From positions 124,001 through 188,000 of the forward strand of contig NZ_JFHL01000018.1 of NCBI RefSeq assembly GCF_003664995.1: 64,000 bases of DNA, written 5' to 3'. Position numbers and translations under genes: made by a program. Positions 19,945-42,965 of the stretch are shown piece by piece. Origin of the DNA: Mesotoga sp. BH458_6_3_2_1. Lineage in GTDB: Bacteria; Thermotogota; Thermotogae; Petrotogales; Kosmotogaceae. Each line of letters opens with the position of its first letter. The stretch's first letter is position 1. Under the pieces are notes generated by a model. That model was not told the origin of the DNA. It was given only the letters and a program-made list of their open reading frames with translations, and ran no database searches.

Positions 19945-20685
19945 ATGAATTCCAGGCCTTTGATTCTCGGACACAGGGGAATGGGAACAGGTGTGGGGGA
20001 AAATTCCCTTCTTTCAATAGTAAGAGCAGTTCAAGTTGGCGCTGACGGAGTCGAACTGGATGTACAGCTCACTGGAGACGGAGTGCTTGTCGTAAACCAC
20101 GACTCTAGTTTGAAAAGGACTCTGGGCGTAGATGTAGAGTTGAGAGACACGAGCTTCAAGAGGCTCAAGAAGATGCATCTAGTTAATCCCGAAGGAATTA
20201 CGACTCTCGAAAAAGTCTATCTTGAGCTTCCTGAAACGGCTTTTGTCAATGTGGAGATCAAGGACCCCAAAGCGGCCGATCTTGTTGTTCCTCTTGTGAA
20301 GAGCTTTAACGCGATTGATAGGACACTCTTCTCATCTTTCTACCATGCATGTCTGAGAAAAGTGAAAGAAAAAGAAATTCGAGCAAAGATAGGTATTCTT
20401 GTTGGAGAAGATGCAAGAGGAAAGGATCCTGTAAAGTATTTCGAAGAGCTTCTCAAATACGAGCCTTTCTCTCTTAACCTACCCGTCCAGTTGTTTGATG
20501 AGATCGGTTTCGAGCTGGGAATGCGTTTCATCAGATTTATTAGAAGCAGAGGAGTGAAGATCGCGCTGTGGACTCTAGATGATCCCGGACTACTTATGAA
20601 GATCAGGGGTGAAGTTGACATAATAATTACCGACAATCTTCAAGGTATAATTGCTGCACTTGGAGGAAAAAGCGAAAGAAGGTGA
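19945..20685 (+). CDS. ugpQ: Glycerophosphodiester phosphodiesterase
   Basis: TIM-barrel phosphodiesterase of 246 residues releasing glycerol-3-phosphate from phospholipid head-group diesters. It shows ILGHRGMG, GENSLLS, the metal ligands in DGVELDVQLT and the catalytic His in LVVNHDSSL, all typical of the GDPD family. There is no signal peptide, so it is cytoplasmic. ATG 19945 is preferred: GGAGGT lies just before it, inside the four-codon longer version. Overlaps the next gene by 4 bases. Confidence 0.93.
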   Translation: MNSRPLILGHRGMGTGVGENSLLSIVRAVQVGADGVELDVQLTGDGVLVVNHDSSLKRTLGVDVELRDTSFKRLKKMHLVNPEGITTLEKVYLELPETAFVNVEIKDPKAADLVVPLVKSFNAIDRTLFSSFYHACLRKVKEKEIRAKIGILVGEDARGKDPVKYFEELLKYEPFSLNLPVQLFDEIGFELGMRFIRFIRSRGVKIALWTLDDPGLLMKIRGEVDIIITDNLQGIIAALGGKSERR

Positions 20686-21449
20686 CGGCGTTGCTGTATC
20701 TCGAGAAATTCGCTTCGGCTATTCTGACACCACCGGGACTTTTCATTCTCATTCTTCTAGTAATCGCAGCGATTCTAATAAAGAAGGGTGAAGAGAGAAG
20801 GACAAAAATCACGGGGATTGTAATGATTATCCTGTGCTTCTTCGCTTATCTTCTCTCTACAGGATTTGGAACACATCTGTATCTTCAGCCGCTGGAAAAT
20901 TCATACTCCGTGCCCCGCACAGTGAGTGGACAGGCAATAGTGGTCTTGAGCGGCGGCATAATTATCTCTCCGGAAGGTCAAGTGCTGGATAATCATACCA
21001 TTGCCCGGCTGTCAAAGGCTCATGAGATTCATCTTCAGACGAAACTTCCGATCATCGTGACGGGATCTTTCATGCCGGGGAGATCAACTTCAACAGTTGC
21101 CGAGCTGATGAGAGACTGGCTTCTCGATCACGGAGTTGCATCTGCCAGGGTCATTGTTGAACCTCGAGCTCAGACAACCTGGGAAAATGCGCGCTATGCT
21201 TCAGATATCTGCAGTCAATTCAACTGGTCAAACGTGGTTCTAGTTACTTCTGCCGTCCACATGAAAAGGGCAGTCAGTTCGTTCGAGAAGTTCGGTCTGA
21301 GAGTAACACCATTCCCGACTGATTACATGTATGACCACACTAAACTGAGCTATGTCGATTTTCTGCCAAACCAGGGTGCCTTAAATGCTAACTTAGCCGC
21401 CCTCCATGAGTATTTCGGACAATTGAGATATCTGTTCAAGAGTCCGTAA
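20682..21449 (+). CDS. YdcF/ElyC-like DUF218 membrane protein
   Basis: Protein of 255 residues with two N-terminal transmembrane helices (about 12-30 and 40-58) followed by a DUF218 domain: QAIVVLSGGIIISPEGQVLDNHTIARL, PIIVTGS, an acidic EPRAQTTWENARY and VVLVTSAVHMKRAV. Relatives (ElyC, SanA, YdcF) act in envelope biogenesis. GTG 20682 overlaps the upstream stop; TTG 20691 with AAGAAGG before it is an alternative start. Confidence 0.85.
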   Translation: MTALLYLEKFASAILTPPGLFILILLVIAAILIKKGEERRTKITGIVMIILCFFAYLLSTGFGTHLYLQPLENSYSVPRTVSGQAIVVLSGGIIISPEGQVLDNHTIARLSKAHEIHLQTKLPIIVTGSFMPGRSTSTVAELMRDWLLDHGVASARVIVEPRAQTTWENARYASDICSQFNWSNVVLVTSAVHMKRAVSSFEKFGLRVTPFPTDYMYDHTKLSYVDFLPNQGALNANLAALHEYFGQLRYLFKSP

Positions 21450-21460
21450 GGTGTTAGATC

Positions 21461-22747
21461 ATGTGTGATACGTTTGTGGTTCTAGGGAAATCGTCTGCCG
21501 ATGGCATAACTCTCTTCGGAAAGAACAGCGATCGTGAGCCAAATGAACCACAGTCTGTCTATTTCTTCCCACGTTCTTCAAACAACAGCGATGAGCTATT
21601 CACGACTAATCAAAGAGTTGATCAGGCGAGTGAGACCAATGCCATACTCATTTCAAAACCTTCATGGATGTGGGGTGGAGAGATGGGTGTCAGTGAAAAG
21701 GGAGTCGTCATAGGTAATGAGGCGGTATTCACCAAAGAGAGCGTCAGAAGAGACGGGCTGCTTGGAATGGACATGTTGAGAATTGCTCTCGAGAGATCAG
21801 AAAACGCCGAACATGCTGTCAAAATTATTGTTGAGCTTATTGATAAGTACGGCCAGGGTGGGAATGGGGGTTTCGCCAAGTACTTCTATTACCACAATTC
21901 CTTTTTGATAGCAGATAGAGAGAACGCCTGGATTGTCGAGACCTCTGATCGATACTGGGTTGCAAAGAGAGTTGATGGGTACGCCGCAATTTCGAACTGT
22001 CTTTCTATCGGAGAGGAAATCGATGAGAGCCACCCTCAAGTTGTTAGTAATGCCGAGAATCGAAAGTGGCACAAGAGGGGTAAAGAATTCAATTTCGCCC
22101 AATCATATGAAAGAAAGCTGATAGCTAAGTTCTCTGGCGCAGAGGCGAGATCAAAGAGAGTAAAGAGCCTAATAGAAGAGAGAAAAATGGACATAGAGAG
22201 CAGTTTCGAAGTTCTTAGAGATCATGGAGGAGGCAGGTTGCTCGGCTCAATGAGAAACATATGCATGCATGCGGGTCCAGGCGTTGTCAGCTCTCAGACT
22301 ACAGCTTCTATGGTAGTTGCTCTGGGAGATAGAATTGAAGTATGGGTTACAAACAGCAGTCTTCCTTGTCTTTCAATCTTCAAACCGGTGTGGTTTGACA
22401 GCTTCAAGTCAAGCCTTCCCTTCGAAGAAGAAGGAATCAATTACTGGGGAAACTGGGAGATATTCAATAGACTGGCATTGTTAAGAAATTCGAAGGCGAA
22501 AGAGCTGTGGAAGGAATACTGTCTGCCTCTGGAGTTGGACTTGTTGTTCAACCGGGAGAAGATGTCAGAAGAAGTGCTTACGAGTCAGGCCTTCGAAAAG
22601 AGCTGGAATATTGCAAGGAAGATGACTTCTCTACTTAGAGAGGAGAAAGAAGAGGTTGGCTTCTTTGATAGGAACTACTGGAATAGGCAGAACAAGAAAC
22701 TTCAACAGTTGAAGGCGAGGAATTTCAAGAAAGAGCTTCCTACCTAA
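21461..22747 (+). CDS. Secernin/C69-family dipeptidase-like Ntn hydrolase
   Basis: Protein of 428 residues beginning MCDTFVVLGKSSADG. Cys 2, exposed once Met is removed, is the presumed N-terminal nucleophile of peptidase family C69. FGKNSDREPNEPQ, GEMGVSEKGVVIGNEAVFT and SNCLSIG are secernin-type motifs. Likely a cytoplasmic dipeptidase or amidohydrolase. It begins 11 bases after the DUF218 gene and may share its transcript. Its 3' end overlaps the convergent MBL gene by 8 bases. Confidence 0.87.
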   Translation: MCDTFVVLGKSSADGITLFGKNSDREPNEPQSVYFFPRSSNNSDELFTTNQRVDQASETNAILISKPSWMWGGEMGVSEKGVVIGNEAVFTKESVRRDGLLGMDMLRIALERSENAEHAVKIIVELIDKYGQGGNGGFAKYFYYHNSFLIADRENAWIVETSDRYWVAKRVDGYAAISNCLSIGEEIDESHPQVVSNAENRKWHKRGKEFNFAQSYERKLIAKFSGAEARSKRVKSLIEERKMDIESSFEVLRDHGGGRLLGSMRNICMHAGPGVVSSQTTASMVVALGDRIEVWVTNSSLPCLSIFKPVWFDSFKSSLPFEEEGINYWGNWEIFNRLALLRNSKAKELWKEYCLPLELDLLFNREKMSEEVLTSQAFEKSWNIARKMTSLLREEKEEVGFFDRNYWNRQNKKLQQLKARNFKKELPT

Positions 22748-23339
22748 AGAAGGGGTTTTCTCTCAAGATATCTTGGGCAGTTGCTTCCGGTCCGTGGCCC
22801 GGGAGGACCCGCAAATTGGGAAGTTCATAGAAAAGTCGCCTGAGTTGCTGAATGCTTCTCTCCATTTCGATTTTATTCCCACCGGGAAGATCGGTTCTTC
22901 CAATAGAATTAGAGAAGACTGTATCTCCAGAAAACAGATGCTTTTCGTCATAAAGGAAGCAGCAAGAGCCCTCTGTGTGCCCGGGTGTATGAAAGTACTT
23001 CCACAGACCATCAAGAATCTCGGTTGTCCTTATCTTAGCCTCTTCAATCAGTAGAGCCTCTTTTCCGAAGATGTTGAGAAGGCTTTTCTCGGGATCGATT
23101 AACATATTTCTATCCAGCTCATGGATAACGATCTCATCAGAGATTATTTTATCAAGATCAAAGATGTGATCTGCGTGTCCGTGAGTTAGCAGAACACGCA
23201 CTTGCTTGTTTCCTACTAAAGGGAAAAATTCAGAAGAAACTCCCCACCCCGGATCGATAATGGTCACCCTATCCTTTTCCTCCACAACGTAGCAATTCTC
23301 ATCCATAGTCCTAGACAAAAACCTCTTAACTGTTATCAC
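22740..23339 (-). CDS. MBL-fold metallo-hydrolase (glyoxalase II-like)
   Basis: A 199-residue metallo-beta-lactamase fold protein. LLTHGHADHIFDL (HxHxDH) provides the zinc ligands, with HTPGHTEGSCCFL, LFSGDTVF and the C-terminal VLPGHGPEAT completing the site. Short members of this group include YcbL-type glyoxalase II enzymes acting on glutathione or other thioesters. The start is GTG 23339 behind GAGGTG. Substrate not identified. Confidence 0.88.
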   Translation of the reverse strand: MITVKRFLSRTMDENCYVVEEKDRVTIIDPGWGVSSEFFPLVGNKQVRVLLTHGHADHIFDLDKIISDEIVIHELDRNMLIDPEKSLLNIFGKEALLIEEAKIRTTEILDGLWKYFHTPGHTEGSCCFLYDEKHLFSGDTVFSNSIGRTDLPGGNKIEMERSIQQLRRLFYELPNLRVLPGHGPEATAQDILRENPFFR

Positions 23340-23507
23340 CTACAACACCTCTCTCGGTTATCACTTACAGTCCAATTCAATCGAGTACAGAAGTAGCGAA
23401 AGGGGAAATCGTCCTGAAGGCAAGCCTTCTCAGACAGAAAAGTTCTAGTTCAATTATTTGCATCTCTTAAGACTCCTCAAGATGGCCTAATCATGCATTA
23501 TCCCGAT

Positions 23508-23537
23508 TTTACCAGAAAGCCGTTCGCGTGATAGAAT
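23508..23537 (+). promoter_or_regulatory. Probable promoter of the HD-GYP gene
   Basis: TTTACC (23508-23513), 18 bases, TAGAAT (23532-23537), 23 bases before the TTG start. Matches are partial. Confidence 0.45.
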
Positions 23538-23560
23538 ACTGAGGGGAAGAGGAGTTAGAT

Positions 23561-25234
23561 TTGAAGAATTCTAGAGTTTGCGGTCTGGCCTTAAGGTTTA
23601 ACTATGATGATCCCGAGAGTTTTAGGTCTGAGCTGAGGGCTATTCTTGATGAAGAGGATCTTTCGAGAGAAGATATCGGAATACTGGTAGCTCTCGACTT
23701 TGCATACTCTCAGACATTCGACGAGACGGGTGTATTTGACTTCTCCGATGTGCAAAGCGAACTTCTGGCAGAAGGAATATACTCTCTGGCATATTTTTTT
23801 GCCAGGAATTCAGAGGACAAGATTGCTTACCTTGTTTCCAAGCTTGCGGTGGATCTGATTGCGAAGGAATGTGCAAAGGAACAGGAAATCAACCTCAAAA
23901 TACTACATATGATGACTTCATTCGAAATGGGCTTCGGAGACGAAACACTCTCGCTTTTCGACGAGCTTGTGAAGCTAGAGAAGTATGTGCCGACCCAGAA
24001 GCGCTTTGAATACTACAATGATCTTGGCCTGGTCTCGACTCAGCTCCAGACAGGCGATAATCCGTGGAAATTCTATGAGAGAGCAAAAGAAGTGGCCGAA
24101 TCACCGGTGAGAGCCCTCATGGTTCAGTTGAATATGATCGATTTTCTCTATTCGAAAAACAGATTCGCTGAAGCAATGGAGCTTCTTGATCAGCTCGAAG
24201 GATGCAATGTGGTTTCAATAAACGGATACAAGCTCATGATAAACTTGAAGATTCTTCTTCAGATGAATGACCTCGACAGAGCGGCAGCTATTGTCGAACA
24301 ACTTGAATCGCTTATTAATTCTCATATCGAATGGACAGACATTGCAGTATCATACATTTTTCTTGGGCACTTCTACGTGAAGAGTGGAGACGTTTCCAGA
24401 GCGGAGAGTTTTTTAAATCAACTCAAGTCTCTTCCTGATGAGTCTTTAACCAGTTACATCAAGGGAGAAACGCTGATTCTTGAAGCGTCAATAATGCAGG
24501 TTAAAGGAGAGCACTTTAGAGCTCTAGAAAACTCAGTTGGTGCATTCGAGTCACTCACTCTCTACAGTACAACATCACCTCATCTAAAAGACTTTGTGAA
24601 CAACCTTTTCGAGAGCATTTCTTCAGTTTTCAGCCAGCTTATCAGAGAATTGAGGCTTAAGGACGACTATACGGCTCTCCATACGCTTCGCGTTCTGAAG
24701 ATTTGCTATGAGTTCGGAAAGGAGCTTAATCTAGAGAAGATAGATCTTTTCAATCTTTCAATCGGCGCAATGTTGCATGACTATGGGAAGGTTGATATTC
24801 CTTTCAATATGCTGAATAAACCGTCGTCTTTGACCGAGGAAGAGTTTACGGAAATAATGAGACACCCAGTTTATGGCGAACGTTATTTGAGAGATTTGAA
24901 TTTTCCGAAGGCAGTGAGGGATATTGTTAGGCACCATCACGAGAGAATAGATGGAAACGGTTATCCAGATGGCCTGAAGGGAGACGAAATCCACATGCTT
25001 GTTCAAATAGTTGCCGCGGCAGACGTCTTCGATGCACTGACAACGGACAGGCCCTACAGAAAAGCAATAACGAAAGCAAGAGCACTGAAGTACTTAGAAG
25101 AAAAAGGCGACCAATTGATCTCAAAAGGTCTCCTCACTAAATTCATAGAATTTTCCCAGCGCAAAGAAATCAATGTTCAAGAAGAAGAAATAACTATATT
25201 ATGGCGTTCAATAATCTCCGAGCTCTTCAAATGA
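23561..25234 (+). CDS. Helical-repeat (TPR-like) HD-GYP domain protein
   Basis: Protein of 557 residues. Residues about 1-350 are soluble alpha-helical repeats of TPR character (YNDLGLVSTQL, FAEAMELLDQLEG, VEQLESLIN). The C-terminal HD-GYP domain has GAMLHDYGKVDIPFNMLNKP, RHHHERIDGNGYPDGLKG and QIVAAADVFDALTTDRPYR. Such domains hydrolyse cyclic di-GMP or act as signalling scaffolds. No membrane segment or receiver domain is present, so the repeats are the likely input. The start is TTG 23561 behind GGAAGAGGAG. Immediately downstream, on the opposite strand, lies a small secreted-peptide operon. Confidence 0.88.
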   Translation: MKNSRVCGLALRFNYDDPESFRSELRAILDEEDLSREDIGILVALDFAYSQTFDETGVFDFSDVQSELLAEGIYSLAYFFARNSEDKIAYLVSKLAVDLIAKECAKEQEINLKILHMMTSFEMGFGDETLSLFDELVKLEKYVPTQKRFEYYNDLGLVSTQLQTGDNPWKFYERAKEVAESPVRALMVQLNMIDFLYSKNRFAEAMELLDQLEGCNVVSINGYKLMINLKILLQMNDLDRAAAIVEQLESLINSHIEWTDIAVSYIFLGHFYVKSGDVSRAESFLNQLKSLPDESLTSYIKGETLILEASIMQVKGEHFRALENSVGAFESLTLYSTTSPHLKDFVNNLFESISSVFSQLIRELRLKDDYTALHTLRVLKICYEFGKELNLEKIDLFNLSIGAMLHDYGKVDIPFNMLNKPSSLTEEEFTEIMRHPVYGERYLRDLNFPKAVRDIVRHHHERIDGNGYPDGLKGDEIHMLVQIVAAADVFDALTTDRPYRKAITKARALKYLEEKGDQLISKGLLTKFIEFSQRKEINVQEEEITILWRSIISELFK

Positions 25235-25261
25235 ATCGGAACAGCGTCGACTCGAATGAAA

Positions 25262-25358
25262 TCAATAACCTTCGGGAATCTTCCAAAGTCCCGGTCCACC
25301 GTCAACTGTTACCATCATCAACAAGTCCAATAAGCAGAATAGCAATAATTTTCTTCAT
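25262..25358 (-). pseudogene. Decayed duplicate of the WKIPE-repeat peptide gene
   Basis: The frame starts at ATG 25358 behind GGGAGGT and reads MKKIIAILLIGL like the intact copy. It then shifts frame and stops at 25302 after 18 residues. The tail in another frame reads VTVDGGPGLWKIPEGY before a TGA at 25262, the same ending as the intact gene. Compared with that copy, about 50 bases are missing, covering the signal-cleavage site and the first WKIPE repeat. The bases before both ribosome binding sites are also alike (GATTATG). Best read as a tandem duplication broken by a deletion. Confidence 0.7.
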
Positions 25359-25402
25359 GATCGAAAACCTCCCATAATCCCAATAATGTGCTTCAGAATC
25401 TA

Positions 25403-25549
25403 TCAATAACCCTCGGGAATCTTCCAGAGTCCCGGTCCGCCGTCAACTGTTATCTCATCCTCGGGGATCTTCCACAGGCCTGGCCCTGCAATGGCAACGC
25501 TACCAAAAGCTATCAAACCAATGAGAATAATCGCTGCTATCTTTTTCAT
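25403..25549 (-). CDS. Small secreted peptide with two GPGLWKIPE repeats
   Basis: A 48-codon gene not matching a family I know. ATG 25549 follows GGAGGTGA at ideal spacing and the stop is TGA at 25403. The first 21 residues are a Sec signal peptide (MKKIAAIILIGLIAFGSVAIA, cleavage expected after AIA). The predicted 27-residue mature peptide carries GPGLWKIPE twice, separated by DEITVDG, and ends in GY. It lies between a 10-codon WKIPE peptide gene upstream and a decayed copy downstream, with a strong promoter upstream of all three. Candidate signalling or surface peptide; a hydrophobic type I toxin is a less likely alternative. Confidence 0.75.
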   Translation of the reverse strand: MKKIAAIILIGLIAFGSVAIAGPGLWKIPEDEITVDGGPGLWKIPEGY

Positions 25550-25605
25550 TCAATTCACCTCCATAATCTGCTTGTCCACGTTATCAATTCCTTAGTTATC
25601 ATCTT

Positions 25606-25638
25606 TCAGTGATCTTCTTCTTCAGGTATCTTCCACAT
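25606..25638 (-). CDS. Ten-codon ORF MWKIPEEEDH, first ORF of the peptide operon
   Basis: ATG 25638 is preceded at 7 bases by AGGAGGT, as good a ribosome binding site as any in the window. The ORF reads MWKIPEEEDH and stops at TGA 25606. The WKIPE motif is shared with the downstream secreted peptide. The frame is open further upstream, but the promoter lies inside that extension, so only the short form fits the transcript. It could be a leaderless peptide, a translated leader or a truncated copy of the same family. Confidence 0.5.
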   Translation of the reverse strand: MWKIPEEEDH

Positions 25639-25702
25639 ATACAGCACCTCCTGGTCAAGTGTTTGAGTTACATTACCTTCTTCAATCAACCCAAATTTAC
25701 TG

Positions 25703-25731
25703 ATTATATCTATTGAATGTTCACAGTTCAA
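25703..25731 (-). promoter_or_regulatory. Near-consensus promoter of the WKIPE peptide operon
   Basis: On the minus strand TTGAAC (25726-25731), exactly 17 bases, TATAAT (25703-25708). Transcription would start near 25697, leaving a leader of about 55-60 bases before ATG 25638. Confidence 0.75.
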
Positions 25732-26074
25732 GAAAATATTGTTGGTCACCTGCACGAAAATGATCGAAACTCTTTCGAAACGAATTAAGACGGTAAGTCA
25801 ATTTTAGATCATAGACGTTCAGATTCCAAAACCATGCAGGGGCTAGTAAATCATCGATAATCGTCCGTGAACTCTGCTAATAATCAATAATCGCCCAAGA
25901 TGGGATACAAAAAACCGATATGAGCTATAATCAAACGATAGAAGATATAATATGTTTAATACACAAGACTTTATATTATGCGAACCAGAGTTTGAATTTG
26001 GAGAAATTAGTAATGGAGACAAATAAATCAGGTTACTTATTCTAATGAATAGTTCACATATTGCATTCGAAAGA
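25732..26074. other. Non-coding AT-rich stretch
   Basis: Between the peptide promoter and the chromate-transporter terminator I see no ORF with a ribosome binding site and no known RNA. It contains a short repeat of ATCGATAATCG / ATCAATAATCG at about 25852-25892. Confidence 0.35.
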
Positions 26075-26096
26075 TTGCGTTGCTTCTGCAACGCAA
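26075..26096 (-). terminator. Terminator hairpin after the chromate transporter genes
   Basis: TTGCGTTGC / GCAACGCAA form a perfect 9-base-pair stem with a 4-base loop, 39 bases past the stop at 26135. The minus-strand tail TCTTTCG is only moderately T-rich. Confidence 0.6.
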
Positions 26097-26134
26097 GGCT
26101 GCTAATCAACGCATTTAGATTATAAATTCAGATT

Positions 26135-26668
26135 CTAGAAAGGAAGCAGAACGGTCCAGATCACGCCTACAAGACCCGTTCCTAAGACAATCCAAATGAC
26201 AGACAGTCTGAATTTGCTAAGGATTACGAAGGCGAATATTCCAAGAATTAACGTGAAAATACTGTTGATAGACTCAATCCCTATTCTGAATGTGGCCGAA
26301 AGAATAAGAGCTACTATACCTAAACGGAGAGCGTTGAAGACCTCAGAAGTGTCAATCCATCTTGACAGAAGTTTGAGGAGTTTTAGAATTAAGAAAATCC
26401 AGAATACGCTTGGAAGAACAACTCCAACAGTAGAACAGACCGATCCGGGCACACCGGCGATCCGATATCCTATGAAAGTTGCAGAATTGATAGCAATTGG
26501 ACCTGGAGTCATTTGTGAGATGGAGATCAACGTAAGGAACTCTTCGAGATTCATCCAGTTGTTTATGTTGACAATCTGATCTTGAATTAAGCTGAGAGCG
26601 CCGTATCCCCCCCCAAAAGCAAGAAGGCCGATTTTGAAAAATGACCAGAAAAGCTCTATGAGAATCAT
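26135..26668 (-). CDS. chrA: Chromate transporter (CHR family), second half-subunit
   Basis: Membrane protein of 178 residues. FGGGYGALSLIQDQIV and SQMTPGPIAINSATFIGYRIAG are the conserved halves of the CHR domain. Several hydrophobic segments follow. The start is ATG 26668, which overlaps the upstream stop as ATGA; the longer open frame to 26980 only shadows the upstream gene. This is the bipartite short-chain form in which two half-size proteins probably make one transporter. Substrate may be chromate or another anion. Confidence 0.88.
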   Translation of the reverse strand: MILIELFWSFFKIGLLAFGGGYGALSLIQDQIVNINNWMNLEEFLTLISISQMTPGPIAINSATFIGYRIAGVPGSVCSTVGVVLPSVFWIFLILKLLKLLSRWIDTSEVFNALRLGIVALILSATFRIGIESINSIFTLILGIFAFVILSKFRLSVIWIVLGTGLVGVIWTVLLPF

Positions 26669-27207
26669 CTCGCCAGCCGCCTGTCGATAATATAGATTAG
26701 TATGGAGCAAAGTAGCAAAACCCATATTGAAGAAATGTTGAAGAAAACAATTGCCACTGTTCCAGCGGCTATCACTATCAAGATAAGATACCTTTTCAGA
26801 CTCTTCTTGAGTAACTGAAAGGAAAGATTTGCCAGGATTACCGTTACACCAACTCTTGCACCAGCAAAGAAACCTTTGAAAACTGGCAAATCGGCGAAAT
26901 CTGTGAAGAATGTTGCAATGACAAGTATTATGAAGAACGGTGTCAACGAAGCTCCTAGAACTGCAAAGAAAGCTCCCCATAGTCCAGCTAATCTGCTGCC
27001 CAGAATCATTGCCGTGTTGATTGCAATCACTCCGGGTACGGTCTGAGCGGTCACAATTACGTCGAGAAATTCATCTTCCTTCATTATTTTGTATTTGTCG
27101 ACAATGAATTCCTTTATTACGGGAATCATTGCGTAGCCACCACCAATTGTGAATGAACTAACTTTGACAAATATCCAGAATAGCCGGAACGGGCTCATCG
27201 ACTTCAC
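26665..27207 (-). CDS. chrA: Chromate transporter (CHR family), first half-subunit
   Basis: Membrane protein of 180 residues. FTIGGGYAMIPVIKEFIVDKYK and AQTVPGVIAINTAMILGSRLAG show the same CHR motifs as its neighbour, shifted to the N-terminal-half type. It starts at GTG 27207 or ATG 27198, neither with a strong ribosome binding site, and overlaps the second half gene by 4 bases. The two half proteins usually insert in opposite orientations. Confidence 0.88.
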   Translation of the reverse strand: MKSMSPFRLFWIFVKVSSFTIGGGYAMIPVIKEFIVDKYKIMKEDEFLDVIVTAQTVPGVIAINTAMILGSRLAGLWGAFFAVLGASLTPFFIILVIATFFTDFADLPVFKGFFAGARVGVTVILANLSFQLLKKSLKRYLILIVIAAGTVAIVFFNISSIWVLLLCSILIYIIDRRLAR

Positions 27208-27423
27208 TGTTCGTCGTATTCTTCACGTAGAGACGAACTTCCTCCTCTCAGATTTAATGGCTTTTTCAGAACAGTTCATTAACCGGGAAGATCGACGTGT
27301 TCTATGTCCTCCTCCCTTCTGCTCATATATTGTACAACTCCTTCTCTTTTTCTGCAGTCAAACATCTAGTAATTGAAATGGTGTATGTGTTGCATGATAA
27401 ACTTGACTGAAGGGGGTGAACCT

Positions 27424-28044
27424 ATGGAAAACAGAATCAGATGGGGCGCCAAAGCGATCTCTTCCGACGGCAATGATCTCGGAAAAGTCATCCGGGTGGT
27501 TATACATCCCAAGAGCAACGAGGTTACTCATGTTGTAATAGAAAAGGGGATTTTCAACAGAGTGGCAAAACTGGTGCCGATAACTACTGTGTTCTTTGCA
27601 GCTCCCGATGAAGTAAGACTGAAGATTGAGTCGAAAGATGTTGAGACTTTGCAGGATTACGAAGAGACATTCTTCGTCACTGGTGAAGAAATAGAGAATT
27701 TGGAGAGCGGAGTGACTCCGGTGTACTGGCTGAGGCCGGTTGGCGACTATGCTGAGCTCTACCCGCTTCCACCACTGAATACGTCAATAAATGTTCCAAA
27801 AGACAGCAAGTCACTTGAACCAGGGTGTGATATAGTTACTGCTGAGGAAAAGACGGTGGGCAGGGTAAGGAGTTTCATTCTTAACGATGAAGGTAAGATA
27901 ACTCATTTGATAGGCGAGTGTGGTGGCTTTGGCTCAAAGTCGAAGAAACTAATACCAATAGATTGGGTTGAAGAGATTGATGAGTGTAAGGTTAGGGTAT
28001 CCGCATCTTCGGTGATGGTGGAGAAACTACCGGAAATGGACTGA
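27424..28044 (+). CDS. Protein with two PRC-barrel domains
   Basis: Protein of 206 residues with two PRC-barrel-like halves: RWGAKAISSDGNDLGKVIRVVI and CDIVTAEEKTVGRVRSFILNDEG, each followed by a THVVIEKG or THLIGECG strand. PRC barrels serve as small adaptor or RNA-binding modules. ATG 27424 follows AAGGGGGTGA; the upstream in-frame ATG lacks a site. It opens a run of seven same-strand genes. Its link to the downstream exporter genes is unknown. Confidence 0.8.
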   Translation: MENRIRWGAKAISSDGNDLGKVIRVVIHPKSNEVTHVVIEKGIFNRVAKLVPITTVFFAAPDEVRLKIESKDVETLQDYEETFFVTGEEIENLESGVTPVYWLRPVGDYAELYPLPPLNTSINVPKDSKSLEPGCDIVTAEEKTVGRVRSFILNDEGKITHLIGECGGFGSKSKKLIPIDWVEEIDECKVRVSASSVMVEKLPEMD

Positions 28045-28595
28045 TGAAAAAAGTGACAGTGTTCTACTTTGTCTCTACTGCAATCCTATTCATGCTGAAT
28101 TTTGCTAAGGGCTCTTACTCTCAGGCTGTGTTTTTCTTTATGCCTATAATAATCGTTGCTGACTACTTAATAATCATGGGAGTTCCAGGGAAGAGCCGTT
28201 CAAAAGAGATCTCGGGATTCCTAGAGAATGTTCAAAGCATACTTACTCTCAGGAGTACATTCGAAGAAAGCACAAAGGGAAAGATGATTGATTCTGAGAA
28301 TCTGAAGAACCTCGAAGAAGTGGTGTCTTCTCTTGAAGAAAGACTAAGGAAGCCCTCCGAGTTGCAGAGAAAACTCTATCTATTCTCGGCTTACGCAGCA
28401 CCGCTATTTCCTCTCGCAGTTATGCTTTCATCCGTGCTTATTCAGAGGAGAACGGAGATTGTTGCCGGTTTATTCTCTTACGCTGCATCTGTAATAATTG
28501 TCGTCTTATCAAGAAGGGCCTTTTCAACTCTTGAAAAGACGATTGAGAAGCTCAATGGTGAGATAAAGAAAGCTGTGGACGATATCACTTTGTAG
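28044..28595 (+). CDS. Small membrane protein of unknown function
   Basis: Protein of 183 residues, not recognised. Two hydrophobic segments lie at the N-terminus (about 4-22 and 26-46), then an amphipathic, probably coiled-coil stretch (about 50-110), then two more hydrophobic segments near 112-155 and a charged end. It overlaps the upstream stop as TGATG, so it is translationally coupled to the PRC-barrel gene. Confidence 0.65.
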   Translation: MKKVTVFYFVSTAILFMLNFAKGSYSQAVFFFMPIIIVADYLIIMGVPGKSRSKEISGFLENVQSILTLRSTFEESTKGKMIDSENLKNLEEVVSSLEERLRKPSELQRKLYLFSAYAAPLFPLAVMLSSVLIQRRTEIVAGLFSYAASVIIVVLSRRAFSTLEKTIEKLNGEIKKAVDDITL

Positions 28596-28627
28596 TATCT
28601 GTTTCGCCCACAGGAAGGAGATTCGAA

Positions 28628-29329
28628 ATGGCATTTGTTGAAGTCAGAGACCTAAGCAAGACTTACAGGTCAGGTGAAATATCGGTTGAAGCACTGAAGG
28701 GGGTCTCTTTCGATATCTATAAGGGCGAAATACTGTCGATTTTGGGTCCTTCCGGTTGCGGAAAGAGTACGCTCTTGAATTGCCTTTCAGGAATAGATAC
28801 ACCCACAGAAGGCAAAGTCATCATTAAGGGAGTGGATCTCCATTCATTAAAGGATGATGAAAAGACACGCTTCAGGGCGATGCACATGGGATTCGTTTTC
28901 CAATTCTACAACTTGATACCCGTCTTGAAGGCAGTTGAGAACGTTGAACTTGCTATGCTCACTATGGGAAGCAATGAGAAGAAGGCGAGAGAGGCCGCAA
29001 TGGACATCCTTGCAAAAGTCAACCTAAGGGAGCGCGAACATTATCTTCCTTCAAGACTTAGCGGCGGCGAAAGACAAAGAGTCTCTATCGCAAGAGCGCT
29101 TGTTCATAAGCCGGCAATAGTGTGGGCAGACGAACCTACCGGAGCGCTTGATACAAAGACCAGCAGTGATTTGATGAACTTGATTACTGAGCTTAATGCT
29201 ACATTTAACCAGACATTTGTGATCGTTACTCATGATGAAAGAGTCTCCAATTACTCAAACAGAGTTCTCCATATGGACAGTGGTCGCATTCTCAAGATTG
29301 AAGAGAATAAAGAACTGAAGGTGCAATAG
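28628..29329 (+). CDS. ABC transporter ATP-binding protein (MacB/LolD type)
   Basis: ATPase of 233 residues: Walker A GPSGCGKSTLL, Q-loop VFQFYNLIP, signature LSGGERQRVSIARAL, Walker B VWADEPTGALD and switch His in IVTHDER. VFQFYNLIP and DEPTGALD are hallmarks of the MacB/LolD/FtsE group. It pairs with the FtsX-type permease that starts on its stop codon. The pair may export a peptide or lipoprotein, or act mechanically rather than as a classical exporter. Confidence 0.93.
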   Translation: MAFVEVRDLSKTYRSGEISVEALKGVSFDIYKGEILSILGPSGCGKSTLLNCLSGIDTPTEGKVIIKGVDLHSLKDDEKTRFRAMHMGFVFQFYNLIPVLKAVENVELAMLTMGSNEKKAREAAMDILAKVNLREREHYLPSRLSGGERQRVSIARALVHKPAIVWADEPTGALDTKTSSDLMNLITELNATFNQTFVIVTHDERVSNYSNRVLHMDSGRILKIEENKELKVQ

Positions 29330-32300
29330 TGTTAATACAGATCGTGAGCATCCTTTCAGGGATCGCTGTGATTGCGACGGTAGTTTCAATGATAGCGAAT
29401 CCGATAATCTTCAAGATCGGTTACAGGAATATCTACAGAAGAAAATCCGACACTCTTCTGGTGATCATGGGATCTCTTATCGGAACGGCTTTAATTATGG
29501 GTTCAATGGCTATGAACGATTCTTTCCAGAAGTTTCTTTATGCTCAAATTGAAAGAAGCCACGGTGAGATAGATGAAATGGTCTACATTCCTTCCGACAA
29601 TCAGAACGTTGTCAAAGAATTCATCCCCAATTTCAAGATCGAGGCTCTTGTTGATTCACTGTCCGAGAATGAACAGGTTGACGGTGTGCTTCCGATTCTC
29701 ACCAGAACCGTATCTGTCGGGCTTCCAGGTGAGGCAAGAAGTCAAACCGGGCAGAGTCTTCAGGTGAGTATCATTGGTGTAGAGCCCGGAAAACTCTCAG
29801 GTTGGCCTGATGTTGCCGAGGTTGAGTTTGCAGTGCCCGGCAAGACAGAGGGCGTTCTCGAGGTGATTATCAACAAGGAGTTGTCAGATTCTCTGGGAGT
29901 ATCTGTGGGAGATACGCTCGAAATCCTTGCCGATCCCGGCCAGAGGCTACTCTTCTGGATACCTCTTCCCGAAGTGAGAGTCGCGGGAATTGTCGAAGGT
30001 AATGGTGTTCTTCACTACCAGATTGAAAACCAGGGGCCAAATGCATTCACTATGCTGATGGACATTGAATCTGCCAGAGAGGTCCTGAAGATCGGTGTTG
30101 ACGACTATTTCAATGCTCTTCTTGTCTCAAACCGCGGCGACTTCCTGAAAGGGGAGAAACTCACCGATGAAGTTGTTACAAGCATAAGAGAGATAGCCGG
30201 TGAGGAATATGTGGTAAGAGAGGTCAAAAGAGACTCCATTAGTATGGTTGACCAGGGCAATATCGGTTTGTTGTTCCTTATGTTGAGCGTATTTGCTATT
30301 TTTGCCGGGGCGTTGCTTCTGACAAATATATACTTGATGCTTGCTCAGGAGCGAAGAACTGAACTCGGTACCCTCAGGGCGATAGGTTATTCAAGAAGGA
30401 AGGTTTCGAAAACGATTCTGTACGAAGGCTTTTTCTACTCAATTTTCTCATCTGCGATCGGAGTCTTAGGCGGTTTGGCAATCGCAAGGTTTATCCTGGG
30501 GAGTTTTGTGAACCTCTTCGAGGACGTTGCTTCACTTATTCCCTTTGAAGGAGCAAACATGGCTTTCAGTTCAATGCAGAGTTCGTTTGTCTTCTTCGTA
30601 CGCACAGATTCTATCGCTTATGGTTTTCTTTTGGGACTGATAATTCCGATGGTTATTATTGTCTACACGGGCAGAAAGATATCCCGAACGAACATTGTTA
30701 CCGCCGTTCGGAACATCCCTGAAGAGCTGGACGACCGCAAGAGGCTTCTCCTGAATATTCTTGCTGCTGTGGGCGTTTTATTTTCGACTATCATGGCTTA
30801 CAGCAGCTACACACTGGGAAATGCCGCCGGGTTCTTCACCGGCGTGGTGCTTGCGGGTCTCCTAATTCCAGTTGCAATTCCGGTGAAAAACAAGAGGTTG
30901 ATAGAGTCGTTGTTCTCGATTGGTGTGATTGTATTCACAATGCTCAGCAATTCCTTTTCTTTAATTGCTTCCAATACCGGTTCGTCGATTTACCTCACGG
31001 TGGCGAAAGGCGCCGCAATTCTTTTTGCCGGACTTTTCCTGATTGTGTATAATCTTAAGACCTTTGAATTCCTATTGAATAAGCTCTTCCAGAGAGCAAA
31101 AGCGGCGGCTCCCGTATTCAAGATATCTGTTGCTTTTTCTGCCAGAAACCGAATGAGAACGGGGCTTACAATTGCTATGTTTGCCGTAGTGATTTTTGTT
31201 ATCACTCTGATTTCGATAATTCCCTACTCTATGGAGCAAATGCTTGTCAAGAGTCGAGATGCTGTCTTTTCCGGTTTCGATGTTGGGGCCTTCTCCTTCA
31301 CCGGGAATGGAAGCATTTCCTTCAGTGAGTTGCAGTCCCAGCCAGAAGTAAGAGAGATTTCTACTGTCGCCGGAATGAATGTAGCAGTAAGAAGGGATGA
31401 TCGGTACGGTCTTGAGCAGATCTATTCGGTCGATGATAGTTTTGTTGACTACAACAGGTTGCTCGAAATTGATTATGATGAAAAACTAGGTATATCAAGT
31501 CCGAATGATCTCTGGAAGTACCTCAGAGACAATCCTGGCACGGTTGTTGTATCGAACAGCGTCCTGCCCGACGTCAAACCCGGGGATGTTCTGGAACTCA
31601 GAGGAGTCATCGCTCAAGAAGATAGCGGACATGGCGTAAGCGGTTTATTGAGGAGAAATGTCGCCTCTGAGATGATTGATTCTAAATCCGTATATCTCAA
31701 AGTGATTGCTACGATCCCGGAGAACACTATCTCCTTCTTGAACGGTCTGCTTATATATAGAGGAAACGTTCCTACCGAGTTATCCGGGAATGTTGCTGAG
31801 AGGCAGTACCTTTTCAACCTTGCAGGCGCCACCGAAGGTGAAAAGAAAGGAAACTTCGATGCCCTACAGGACAAGATCGCATCTGGCAATCTCTTCCTGC
31901 TCTATGTTGATGACATAATTAACCTTACTTCGACCATGCTGCAGGGTACGATTAGTATTCTTAGATCCTTCCTGTACTTCGGGATGCTTGTGGGGATTGT
32001 TGGAATCGCGATCATTATGTTCAAGGCGCTTCACGAAAGGAAGCGAATTATTGGTATGCTTAAGGCAATAGGCTTCACCAAGAAGATGGTATTCTCTTCG
32101 TTCCTTCTCGAAACGTCTTTCATTGCGATTATTGGTATTGTTCTTGGTATAGTAACAGGAACACTTACGAGTTTAGAGATTTACGCTTCTCCTTTGATGG
32201 AGGGTATGAAGCTCTATATCCCTTGGGATCAGCTAATTGCTATGACGCTGATCTTTTATATAGCTTCACTTGTTTCAACGATTATTCCCAGTTATTCGGC

Positions 32301-32343
32301 CTCGAAAATCGTGCCTGCAGAAGCTTTGAGGTACTTCGAATAG
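29329..32343 (+). CDS. ABC transporter permease with two FtsX domains
   Basis: Very large permease, 1004 residues. Helix at 1-25, an external MacB-PCD-like domain, then an FtsX core (LLFLMLSVFAIFAGALLLTNIYLM and ERRTELGTLRAIGYSRRKV), several more helices in the middle, a second external domain, and a C-terminal FtsX core (ERKRIIGMLKAIGFTKKMV) with the last helices. Two FtsX modules in one chain means it can act as a complete permease. The start is GTG 29329, overlapping the ATPase stop by one base. Confidence 0.9.
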   Translation: MLIQIVSILSGIAVIATVVSMIANPIIFKIGYRNIYRRKSDTLLVIMGSLIGTALIMGSMAMNDSFQKFLYAQIERSHGEIDEMVYIPSDNQNVVKEFIPNFKIEALVDSLSENEQVDGVLPILTRTVSVGLPGEARSQTGQSLQVSIIGVEPGKLSGWPDVAEVEFAVPGKTEGVLEVIINKELSDSLGVSVGDTLEILADPGQRLLFWIPLPEVRVAGIVEGNGVLHYQIENQGPNAFTMLMDIESAREVLKIGVDDYFNALLVSNRGDFLKGEKLTDEVVTSIREIAGEEYVVREVKRDSISMVDQGNIGLLFLMLSVFAIFAGALLLTNIYLMLAQERRTELGTLRAIGYSRRKVSKTILYEGFFYSIFSSAIGVLGGLAIARFILGSFVNLFEDVASLIPFEGANMAFSSMQSSFVFFVRTDSIAYGFLLGLIIPMVIIVYTGRKISRTNIVTAVRNIPEELDDRKRLLLNILAAVGVLFSTIMAYSSYTLGNAAGFFTGVVLAGLLIPVAIPVKNKRLIESLFSIGVIVFTMLSNSFSLIASNTGSSIYLTVAKGAAILFAGLFLIVYNLKTFEFLLNKLFQRAKAAAPVFKISVAFSARNRMRTGLTIAMFAVVIFVITLISIIPYSMEQMLVKSRDAVFSGFDVGAFSFTGNGSISFSELQSQPEVREISTVAGMNVAVRRDDRYGLEQIYSVDDSFVDYNRLLEIDYDEKLGISSPNDLWKYLRDNPGTVVVSNSVLPDVKPGDVLELRGVIAQEDSGHGVSGLLRRNVASEMIDSKSVYLKVIATIPENTISFLNGLLIYRGNVPTELSGNVAERQYLFNLAGATEGEKKGNFDALQDKIASGNLFLLYVDDIINLTSTMLQGTISILRSFLYFGMLVGIVGIAIIMFKALHERKRIIGMLKAIGFTKKMVFSSFLLETSFIAIIGIVLGIVTGTLTSLEIYASPLMEGMKLYIPWDQLIAMTLIFYIASLVSTIIPSYSASKIVPAEALRYFE

Positions 32344-32354
32344 GAAGTGGTTAG

Positions 32355-33476
32355 ATGAGCAGAATACTGGTGGTGGACGATGACCTGTCGGTAAGGGTTC
32401 TACTGAAATCGATACTCGCAAGAGACGAACATGAAGTGGTAGAAAGTGCAGATGGCAAATCGGCGTTTTCCTCACTATCAAAGGGGAAGCCAGATATGAT
32501 CTTGCTGGATCTCATGTTGCCTGACTACAACGGACTGGATATTCTCAACGAGCTGAAGCAAGATCGAGAACTTGAATCTATTCCCGTTATTGTCCTTACG
32601 GGATCTGCCGACCGGGAAAGCAAACTTACCGCGCTTGGTTCTGGTGCAGTTGATTTCATCTCTAAGCCCTTTCTTCCTGAAGAGGTTATTCTCAGAGTGA
32701 ATACCCAACTGAAGCTTCATGATCTTATAAAGTCATTGAGAATTGCGGTGGACAATCTTGAAAGCGATGTTCTGGCAGCGGGAAAGATACAGAACGCGTT
32801 AGTGCCCCAGAGTAATCCACAGGGCTTGGCCGTTGAGTGGATCTATGAACCTTCTTATAGAGTTGGTGGGGACATATTCGATGTTTTCAAATTGAGTGAC
32901 AATCGTTTCTTTGTATATCTCGCAGATATGTCGGGTCACGGAGTGAATGCCGCAATGCTTTCTGTAATGGTCCACAGGTTCATTGAGGATTTCAGAATTG
33001 GTATGGGGGATAGGGATTTCGACCTTGGCGTTTTCATGAAGGAGCTCGACAAGAGCTTTGTATTCGAGAGATTCAACCTTTTCTTCACAATCGTTTCGTT
33101 AATCGTGGATCTTGAGGAAGGCATTGTCCTTCTTTCAAATGCAGGACACCCATCGCCATTAATTCAAAGAAATGGGTCTGTCGAATTACTTGACAGACAG
33201 AGAGAAGGTCTGGTCGGTATAAATATGATTCGGGGAGACGTTGCAAAGATCCCTTTTCTTAGCGGAGATCGGCTGTTGCTGTACACTGACGGACTGATAG
33301 AAGTAATGAATGAAGGCGGTGAAATGTTCGGTGAGGATAGACTGATAGATCTGGTGAAAAGCTGTTCTAAAATCGATATCAAAAGAACCTCTGGGCGTTT
33401 GAAAGATTCATATGAGAGTTTTAAAGGTGATGCGCTTGCCGAAGACGATATTACGGCGCTGCTAATAGAATTCTAG
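32355..33476 (+). CDS. Response regulator with PP2C/SpoIIE phosphatase output (RsbU/RssB-like)
   Basis: Protein of 373 residues. The N-terminal receiver domain (about 1-120) has VVDDDLSV, phospho-acceptor Asp in DMILLDLMLPDYNG, VLTGS and the Lys in FISKPF. The C-terminal PP2C-like phosphatase (about 135-373) has GGDIFDVF, LADMSGHGVNAAMLSVM, NAGHPSPLI and LLLYTDGLIE with metal-binding aspartates. Phosphorylation would switch on dephosphorylation of the STAS antagonist encoded next. It lies 11 bases after the permease gene, hence in the same run. Confidence 0.92.
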   Translation: MSRILVVDDDLSVRVLLKSILARDEHEVVESADGKSAFSSLSKGKPDMILLDLMLPDYNGLDILNELKQDRELESIPVIVLTGSADRESKLTALGSGAVDFISKPFLPEEVILRVNTQLKLHDLIKSLRIAVDNLESDVLAAGKIQNALVPQSNPQGLAVEWIYEPSYRVGGDIFDVFKLSDNRFFVYLADMSGHGVNAAMLSVMVHRFIEDFRIGMGDRDFDLGVFMKELDKSFVFERFNLFFTIVSLIVDLEEGIVLLSNAGHPSPLIQRNGSVELLDRQREGLVGINMIRGDVAKIPFLSGDRLLLYTDGLIEVMNEGGEMFGEDRLIDLVKSCSKIDIKRTSGRLKDSYESFKGDALAEDDITALLIEF

Positions 33477-41495: not shown

Positions 41496-42965
41496 CTAAC
41501 GGTAATAAAGAGTTGACATATCCTGTACGTACAGTGGATAAACCTTGTACCCAAATAGATCGGGAGCAAGTGCCACAATGAAGTTGGGATCCATTATGTA
41601 AACCGCCGCAGCATCTTCTGTGAGGATTCTCTGTGCCTGCTTGAATAGAGAGGCCTTCTCTTCAATGTCAGTTCTCTCAATGGCCATTTTGACCACTCGA
41701 TCGTATTCGCTGTTGAAGTAGTTGTAGAAGTTCCTCGGATAATCGGAAATGTACCGCCTCAAAATATCGTACGCGCTTAGTTTCCCAGTAAGACCAATTA
41801 TTGTCAATTCGTACTCTCTTGACGTATAGACCTTGTCCAGCCATACACTCCATTCTACCAGCTCTATTTCGGCTTCTATGCCAACTCTTTTAAGCTGTTC
41901 GACAATTATCTGAGCCGTATCTATATGGAACTGGTAGTTCGAAGGTACCGTAATCTTTGTCTTGAAGCCGTCAAGATACCCTGCCTCAGAAAGAAGTTGC
42001 CTTGACCTTACCAAACTGGTTTCATAATAATCCTCGAGACCCTCCAGATAATATCTGCTCATTATTGGAGACATGTTTGAGCCGAGCTTTGTTCCGTACC
42101 CGCCAGCTACGATTTCTATTATTTCGTCCTTGTCCACAGCGTGATTAATCGCCCTCCTGACTCTAATGTCGTCAAAAGGGCTGACCGCATGGTTCATTGC
42201 CATCAACTGGACCATGTTTTGTTCTGCAGTTATTAAGTTGAACCGATTACCCAGAACCATTGCCTGAATTGCGTCGAGTCTTGGAAGTATCTGAACTTCA
42301 CCTGCCATGAAACTCATGATAGCAGCCTGGTTGTCGGGAATTATCCTGAATTCGACTTCATCCACTATTGGCAGTTTGGGGTTCCAGTATTCGTCAAATT
42401 TCTCTATTACAAGCCTTTGGCCCGGCTGATACTTGACAAATTTGAACGGTCCCGTTCCGATCGGGTTGAGTTCATGGTTGTCATTATTTGCGGGAATGAT
42501 CGCAATGATGAACTTCTCGAGAAAGTCGGTGTTCAGGGTATTGAGTTCCACCTTTATTGTCTTTTCGTCTACCGCTTCGATCTTTGAGACGAATTTTTCG
42601 AAGTCTGATGAAAGGCCCCTTTCCTGATTGTTTCCTTTCAGCCTTTTCAGAGAGTACAGAACATCGTCGACAGTAACCTCAGATCCGTTATGGAATTTAA
42701 CGCCGCTTCTTAACGTAAAAGTATAGGTCAGGCCATCATCCGATATATGGTAATCCTCGGCCACGGCCGGAACAACACTTCCATTCGAGTCGGGTTTGAG
42801 GAGACCCTCAAATACGTTGAACATCATTTCGTAAGTCCCCGAAGCAGCCGCTCTATGTGGATCAAGAAAATCGGGATCTTGCATCACTGCGACCACGATT
42901 TTTTGAGATAGCAAACTGGTCACTGTAATGAAAAAAAGCGTGATTATCACGAGAATCTTTCTCAT
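41496..42965 (-). CDS. dppA: Extracellular solute-binding protein, family 5 (peptide-binding type)
   Basis: Protein of 489 residues with a Sec signal peptide (about 1-20) and a family 5 binding fold. DPDFLDPHRAAASGTYEMMFNVFEGLLK at the N-terminus and LTYTFTLRSGVKFHNGSEVTVDDV are diagnostic. No lipobox cysteine, so it is probably soluble or held by its uncleaved signal. First gene of the operon, 15 bases before dppB. It could import peptides, including processed signalling peptides, but nothing in the sequence shows the ligand. Confidence 0.9.
   Translation of the reverse strand: MRKILVIITLFFITVTSLLSQKIVVAVMQDPDFLDPHRAAASGTYEMMFNVFEGLLKPDSNGSVVPAVAEDYHISDDGLTYTFTLRSGVKFHNGSEVTVDDVLYSLKRLKGNNQERGLSSDFEKFVSKIEAVDEKTIKVELNTLNTDFLEKFIIAIIPANNDNHELNPIGTGPFKFVKYQPGQRLVIEKFDEYWNPKLPIVDEVEFRIIPDNQAAIMSFMAGEVQILPRLDAIQAMVLGNRFNLITAEQNMVQLMAMNHAVSPFDDIRVRRAINHAVDKDEIIEIVAGGYGTKLGSNMSPIMSRYYLEGLEDYYETSLVRSRQLLSEAGYLDGFKTKITVPSNYQFHIDTAQIIVEQLKRVGIEAEIELVEWSVWLDKVYTSREYELTIIGLTGKLSAYDILRRYISDYPRNFYNYFNSEYDRVVKMAIERTDIEEKASLFKQAQRILTEDAAAVYIMDPNFIVALAPDLFGYKVYPLYVQDMSTLYYR

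Follow-up and report, generated by a model that had tools for sequence, protein, structure and literature searches.

Comparative analysis of a 64,000-nucleotide stretch of DNA (the window) suggests that a small peptide unit and a convergent neighboring gene, whose product combines TPRs with an HD-GYP domain, form an undescribed peptide signaling pair in the Thermotogota. The peptide unit comprises a leaderless mini-ORF and Sec precursors with two copies of a GPG[LFM]WK[IV]P sequence, and the adjacent protein is the proposed receptor. The account that we favor, at a probability of roughly one half, is that of a peptide ligand and a cytoplasmic TPR receptor whose output is the breakdown of c-di-GMP; the binding of the peptide, its secretion and its action between cells are the parts of this account that we infer.

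The Sec precursor gene of 48 codons lies on the minus strand at 25549..25403 (signal part 25549..25487, mature part 25486..25406) and encodes MKKIAAIILIGLIAFGSVAIAGPGLWKIPEDEITVDGGPGLWKIPEGY, with TGA as the stop codon and GGAGGT 7 nt 5' of the ATG. The initial annotation had reported a gene at these coordinates without giving its strand, and the gene is indeed real. A Sec signal peptide had been claimed for it, and by inspection its N-terminus is compatible with a Sec/SPase I signal: it starts with MKK, has a hydrophobic core of 15 residues (Kyte-Doolittle 2.7) and carries AxA ahead of Gly22. The mature part has the layout GPGLWKIPE-DEITVDG-GPGLWKIPE-GY, the two repeats around DEITVDG having been described earlier, with the first repeat at 25460..25486 and the second at 25412..25438 (both minus strand). 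The 5 bases that distinguish the two 27-nt copies are all synonymous changes, so that the repeat is maintained at the level of the protein and does not stem from a recent duplication of DNA. The window holds this one intact precursor copy and a decayed second one (25261..25358, minus strand), in which the signal start and the last repeat remain, the middle is gone and the frame is broken. Tandem precursor copies are common in the relatives, with 4 in genome G001 and 2 each in G003, G005 and G008, and the contigs of G002, G004 and G006 stop inside or beside precursor copies. The peptide has no match in Pfam or NCBIfam, and Rfam returned no structured-RNA match within 20000–33000. An origin from a mobile element was considered and rejected, as searches of plasmids, phages and IMG/VR gave no match.

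Relatives of the precursor were recovered from 8 of the 9 other genomes of the window's genus (g1), the ninth being 78% complete, and from one genome of the sister genus g2 (G014), with E-values of 1e-21 to 2e-25 inside the genus and 3e-10 in the sister genus. In another g2 genome (G010) the start of the same precursor is readable before the sequence runs into a stretch of N. Relative to the window copy the dN/dS values are 0.04–0.11, and the codons of the mature part show 0–4 non-synonymous versus 10–16 synonymous differences; judged by these substitutions, the precursor is under strong purifying selection. The motif core spans four genera, and the precursor ORF itself is strongly conserved in the window's genus and the one sister genus. 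The initial annotation had staked its reading on conservation of the ORF or motif in related genomes, and both prove to be strongly conserved. When 103 Thermotogota genomes were scanned with a degenerate nucleotide pattern of the PGxWxxP core, 15 matches fell at this locus and 1 elsewhere (reversed control, 0); since the pattern skips G001, G005 and G012, in which the next residues differ, the absence of the motif elsewhere is not absolute. The lone match outside the family (G094) falls in an ORF that lacks a signal sequence and was treated as chance. Weak peptide matches in proteins of ~400 aa from f1 and in signal peptides from f2 were likewise set aside as not belonging to the peptide family, and a scan of genome contigs brought up no new lineages.

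Upstream of the precursor, at 25638..25606 on the minus strand, lies a leaderless mini-ORF of 10 codons plus stop, MWKIPEEEDH, with its own ribosome binding site AGGAGGT (25652..25646, minus strand). A mini-ORF of 10–11 codons with the same core, likewise preceded by a ribosome binding site, occupies this position wherever genomes of the window's genus and its sister genus have readable sequence. Within the genus the variants are MWKIPEEEDH, MWKIPEEDDH, MWKIPEEDEH, MWKIPEEEEPH and MWKIPEEEEPQ, and the sister genus has MWKVPDDEEE. This side of the locus is lost to the contig end in G002, and the G007 contig stops just upstream. The latter (L036, 3' end near 11392) seems to terminate, immediately ahead of the mini-ORF, in adapter sequence of the Nextera type (ATGTGTATAAGAGACAG), so that what looks like a ribosome binding site there is not part of the genome. 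At the I/V position precursor and mini-ORF match within each genus, and at the L/F/M position both precursor repeats match within each lineage; in the sequences compared, the mini-ORF core is thus seen to change in step with the precursor core. Genera g3 (G011, G015, G016) and g4 (G012) have no Sec precursor and carry a leaderless ORF of 22–26 residues alone, 23–38 nt from the receptor stop. Its versions in these genomes are MRMLMMGPGMWQIPDEEEEFDPT, MFTVLMGPGMWTFPDDDDKLED, MFTVLMGPGMWVFPDDDDKLED and MRMIPTPMGSPGLWAVPVEDEELGEV, each preceded by the ribosome binding site AAAGGGGGT, and in g3 a hairpin with a T-run occupies the 3' region shared by the leaderless ORF and the receptor gene. The double-copy Sec precursor was seen in two genera only (g1 and g2); on this comparison it is the leaderless mini-ORF that is the universal element of the peptide unit.

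The proposed receptor is a protein of 557 aa encoded at 23561–25234 on the plus strand, convergent with the peptide unit (536-588 aa in relatives, with a TPR part of ~357 aa). Pfam profiles detect TPRs (TPR_19, 28.4 bits against a cut-off of 25), followed by a C-terminal HD-GYP domain (HD_5, E 1.7e-34). The metal- and substrate-site residues H374, HD406-407, K410, H435, HH459-460, GYP467-469 and D488 are invariant in 17/17 proteins, and the domain is predicted to be a c-di-GMP phosphodiesterase with its catalytic residues intact. There is no evident transmembrane segment, and a cytoplasmic location is predicted for the protein. A profile search with the TPR part found the receptor in 15 of the 17 genomes of the family, several of which are incomplete, and in 0 of 86 other Thermotogota. 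In the receptor tree the lineages with only the leaderless form cluster together (100/98), and a cluster of the two genera with Sec precursors has weak support (78/65). The receptor candidate has no HTH match, its Rgg_C match is sub-threshold (16.7 bits, cut-off 27), and a sequence-profile search of the PDB yielded no RRNPPA chain.

AlphaFold2 models of the receptor candidate reach pLDDT values of 86 (whole protein) and 88 (TPR part). The best PDB matches of the whole model are HD-GYP enzymes, and the TPR part is modeled as an all-helical repeat. Among the 50 matches listed for the TPR part, the top query-normalized TM values (~0.60–0.61) belong to pLS20 Rap with or without Phr*, MalT domain III and the eukaryotic degron receptor 8jal, and the Rap of phi105 with ERPVGT and the Rap of phi3T are listed at 0.56–0.58; by E-value, several eukaryotic TPR proteins are placed as high or higher. 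The model thus supports a ligand-binding type of TPR fold, though not specifically. Alternate helices of the TPR part are more conserved (106–123, 145–162, 218–234, 261–274 and 298–314), as would be expected of a conserved groove if they face the side presumed here.

In all 15 family genomes with a receptor, a motif ORF is situated convergently at the receptor's 3' end. In most of the genus a metallo-beta-lactamase gene lies beyond the receptor and a chromate transporter pair beyond the peptide; the neighbors differ on the receptor side in G003 and G008, and on the peptide side in g2, g3 and g4. The only constant across these neighborhoods is the receptor–peptide pair, and by this comparison of gene order the pairing persists although genes on both flanks have changed; it could stem in part from common descent within one family. 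Two more distant receptor paralogs (G011 and G012) have no motif ORF on their 3' side. The sister genus (G010, G014) alone has on the other side of the peptide a TPR protein of 444–465 aa without an HD-GYP domain (L037:6071-7465 (+), L067:6480-7811 (-)); it is a remote relative of the receptor's TPR half, and its closest relatives outside g2 are the TPR parts of the receptor family. The signaling role that the initial annotation had proposed for the peptide gains real support from the protein constantly found beside it, which combines TPRs with a c-di-GMP phosphodiesterase domain. Its reading is supported in part; it had overlooked both this protein and the leaderless mini-ORF as the universal element.

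Several other explanations have to be weighed against such a role. The leaderless mini-peptide might be a cytoplasmic ligand or inhibitor of the adjacent TPR-HD-GYP enzyme in a private intracellular circuit devoid of cell-cell signaling, with the Sec precursors arising later, e.g. as a means of exporting or titrating the ligand. This possibility, rather unlikely but to be taken seriously, agrees with the predicted cytoplasmic location of the receptor and with the leaderless form being the sole form in g3 and g4 and accompanying the precursor in g1 and g2; what it hardly explains, unless the peptide has an extracellular role, is a signal peptide with two repeats, present in tandem copies and under strong selection in two genera. 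The Sec signal would conversely be accounted for by an envelope microprotein with a function in the periplasm or the outer sheath and no connection to the TPR-HD-GYP protein, the adjacency being inherited synteny, and vertical inheritance in one family could indeed hold neighbors together. Sec, however, cannot take the leaderless relatives of g3 and g4 to the envelope, and the peptide–receptor pair stays while the flanking genes turn over on both sides; we regard this explanation as improbable.

Chances are slim that the mini-ORF serves as a regulatory leader (attenuator) of the precursor genes instead of encoding a product. Its extreme shortness, its position ahead of the precursor and its Trp and Pro codons would suit such a role, but its peptide core covaries with that of the precursor, and the leaderless ORF of g3 and g4 is followed not by a gene but by a hairpin and T-run. 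With no downstream gene in four genomes, attenuation was rejected as a general account of the mini-ORF. A bacteriocin-like or otherwise antagonistic peptide, brought to mind by the small secreted product and its tandem gene copies, appears the least probable of all: the peptide is acidic and not cationic, has leaderless relatives and matches no Pfam or NCBIfam family, and no gene for immunity, dedicated export or modification was recognized alongside.

In the favored account of a peptide ligand and TPR receptor, the precursor would leave the cell via Sec, SPase I would cleave it behind AxA, and the mature peptide of ~27 residues would be trimmed to GPGLWKIPE-type fragments that re-enter the cell through oligopeptide ABC importers. 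Their Trp–x–[Ile/Val/Phe]–Pro core would bind the TPR groove and alter the phosphodiesterase activity, thereby coupling the concentration of the peptide, whether set by density or by confinement, to c-di-GMP-controlled behavior. The leaderless mini-peptide would be the universal form of the ligand, either active within the cell or exported by a route other than Sec. As the receptor is predicted to be cytoplasmic, the ligand would have to be intracellular, either directly in its leaderless form or through export and re-import; and as the peptide of two genera has no Sec signal, export would not be universal. The genome encodes 15 OppA-like binding proteins and 18 GGDEF domains, which render both import and a c-di-GMP pool plausible. 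One OppA-like (SBP_bac_5) protein is encoded within the window itself (41781-42776, minus strand), ~16 kb from the peptide gene.

To compare the pair with known systems, we judged it by the five criteria for RRNPP membership of PMC10075063, namely a propeptide of 10-100 aa, export via Sec (SHP and PrgQ excepted), a receptor of 250-500 aa, TPRs in the receptor and adjacency of the two genes. The precursor (48 aa) and the mini-ORF (10 aa) fall in the propeptide range, TPR_19 scores above its cut-off in a protein modeled as an all-helical repeat, and the genes are adjacent in 15/15 genomes with the receptor. A Sec signal is recognizable by inspection in g1 and g2 and absent in g3 and g4, and the receptor, at 557 aa, exceeds the length range. 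The features of the RRNPPA family proper, an N-terminal HTH or 3-helix bundle and homology to a known subfamily, were not found in the Pfam and PDB profile searches. Because of the receptor length and the lack of an RRNPPA N-terminal domain or profile match, we do not file the pair as an RRNPP member; it is best read as working like Rap–Phr in the manner proposed here, yet lying outside RRNPP by definition.

The likeness to Rap-Phr lies in the small peptide gene beside that of a TPR protein, with a Sec signal here in two genera, in the pheromone duplicated inside the propeptide as in Phr105 (PMC11343458), and in the nearness, though not a specific one, of the TPR model to Rap-Phr structures (TM ~0.6). 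The differences are that the output here is an HD-GYP enzyme instead of a 3-helix bundle or HTH, that the genes are convergent, that a leaderless mini-ORF is present, and that the family belongs to the Thermotogota, whereas RRNPPA systems are reported from Firmicutes. The LCP-RopB system (PMC10518010) similarly has a very short leaderless peptide, which may be compared with the ligand of a helical-repeat receptor proposed here; RopB, however, is there an Rgg-type transcription regulator, whereas the partner here is an enzyme and a Sec precursor is added in two genera. With HD-GYP phosphodiesterases (e.g. PDB 4mcw) the receptor shares the HD_5 match, the invariant catalytic residues and the best whole-protein PDB matches, and differs in that its sensor half consists of a TPR array encoded next to a peptide gene. 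A short, density-dependent peptide was also proposed as a quorum signal in Thermotoga maritima (Johnson et al. 2005, as cited in later papers); searches of Thermotogota beyond its own family did not recover the receptor family of the present locus. In the papers found on HD-GYP and TPR proteins with peptide pheromones, titles and abstracts revealed no such peptide–receptor pair. Among the papers searched, which covered the subscription literature in part, none brought RRNPP and Thermotoga together, and priority is accordingly not proven.

A bolder proposal, offered tentatively and with some doubt, is that the locus represents a one-step peptide-to-second-messenger quorum system outside the Firmicutes, wherein a Trp/Pro peptide directly gates a TPR-HD-GYP c-di-GMP phosphodiesterase, and wherein the core of an intracellular leaderless mini-peptide was later copied twice into a Sec-exported precursor, so that a ligand once private became a public signal. 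If the favored pair does work in the proposed manner, c-di-GMP would come under peptide control via a single protein, with neither kinase nor transcription factor, in a phylum for which the papers searched gave no RRNPP-like system. With leaderless and Sec-exported forms side by side in one family, the birth of a pheromone from an intracellular peptide could be put to the test. The pair also offers a search rule, a TPR–HD-GYP gene with a convergent micro-ORF, for systems missed by detectors restricted to receptors of 250–500 aa.

The DNA upstream of the peptide unit contains further elements. A promoter-like TTGGAA-17-TAAAAT at 25801..25829 (minus strand) is conserved in position in the genus alignment, the lone consensus match being not above chance. 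Upstream of it are two CGATTAT direct repeats, 30 nt apart (25856..25893, minus strand), as possible regulator sites; a search for a CGATTAT regulon recovered the query site as the sole perfect pair, with weaker matches scattered. Across the window's genus, CGTTTGATTAT and the CGATTAT repeats hold constant positions in the segment 25856-25941. In g3 and g4 (L063, L064, L065, L066), TCAAACG elements are repeated upstream of the leaderless ORF at a spacing of 185-186 nt, with a third copy 56 nt further in 3 of the 4 genomes. Both these and the upstream repeats of the window's genus are possible operator sites.

A second family of Sec-signal peptides was encountered in genus g6 of the sister family, where peptides of ~43 aa (MKKIIILILIGILLFSTILFAGDNDKEYTTDSSNPQIQQEISE type) occur in 3-7 copies per genome (L131:6899-7078 (+), L132:7189-7320 (-) and L133:7502-7633 (+), with further copies among L134-L163). 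In L131 and L132 they lie near related proteins of 483-531 aa, which are 59% identical to each other and belong to no Pfam family, and in L131-L133 radical SAM enzymes and ABC transporters are encoded close to the peptides.
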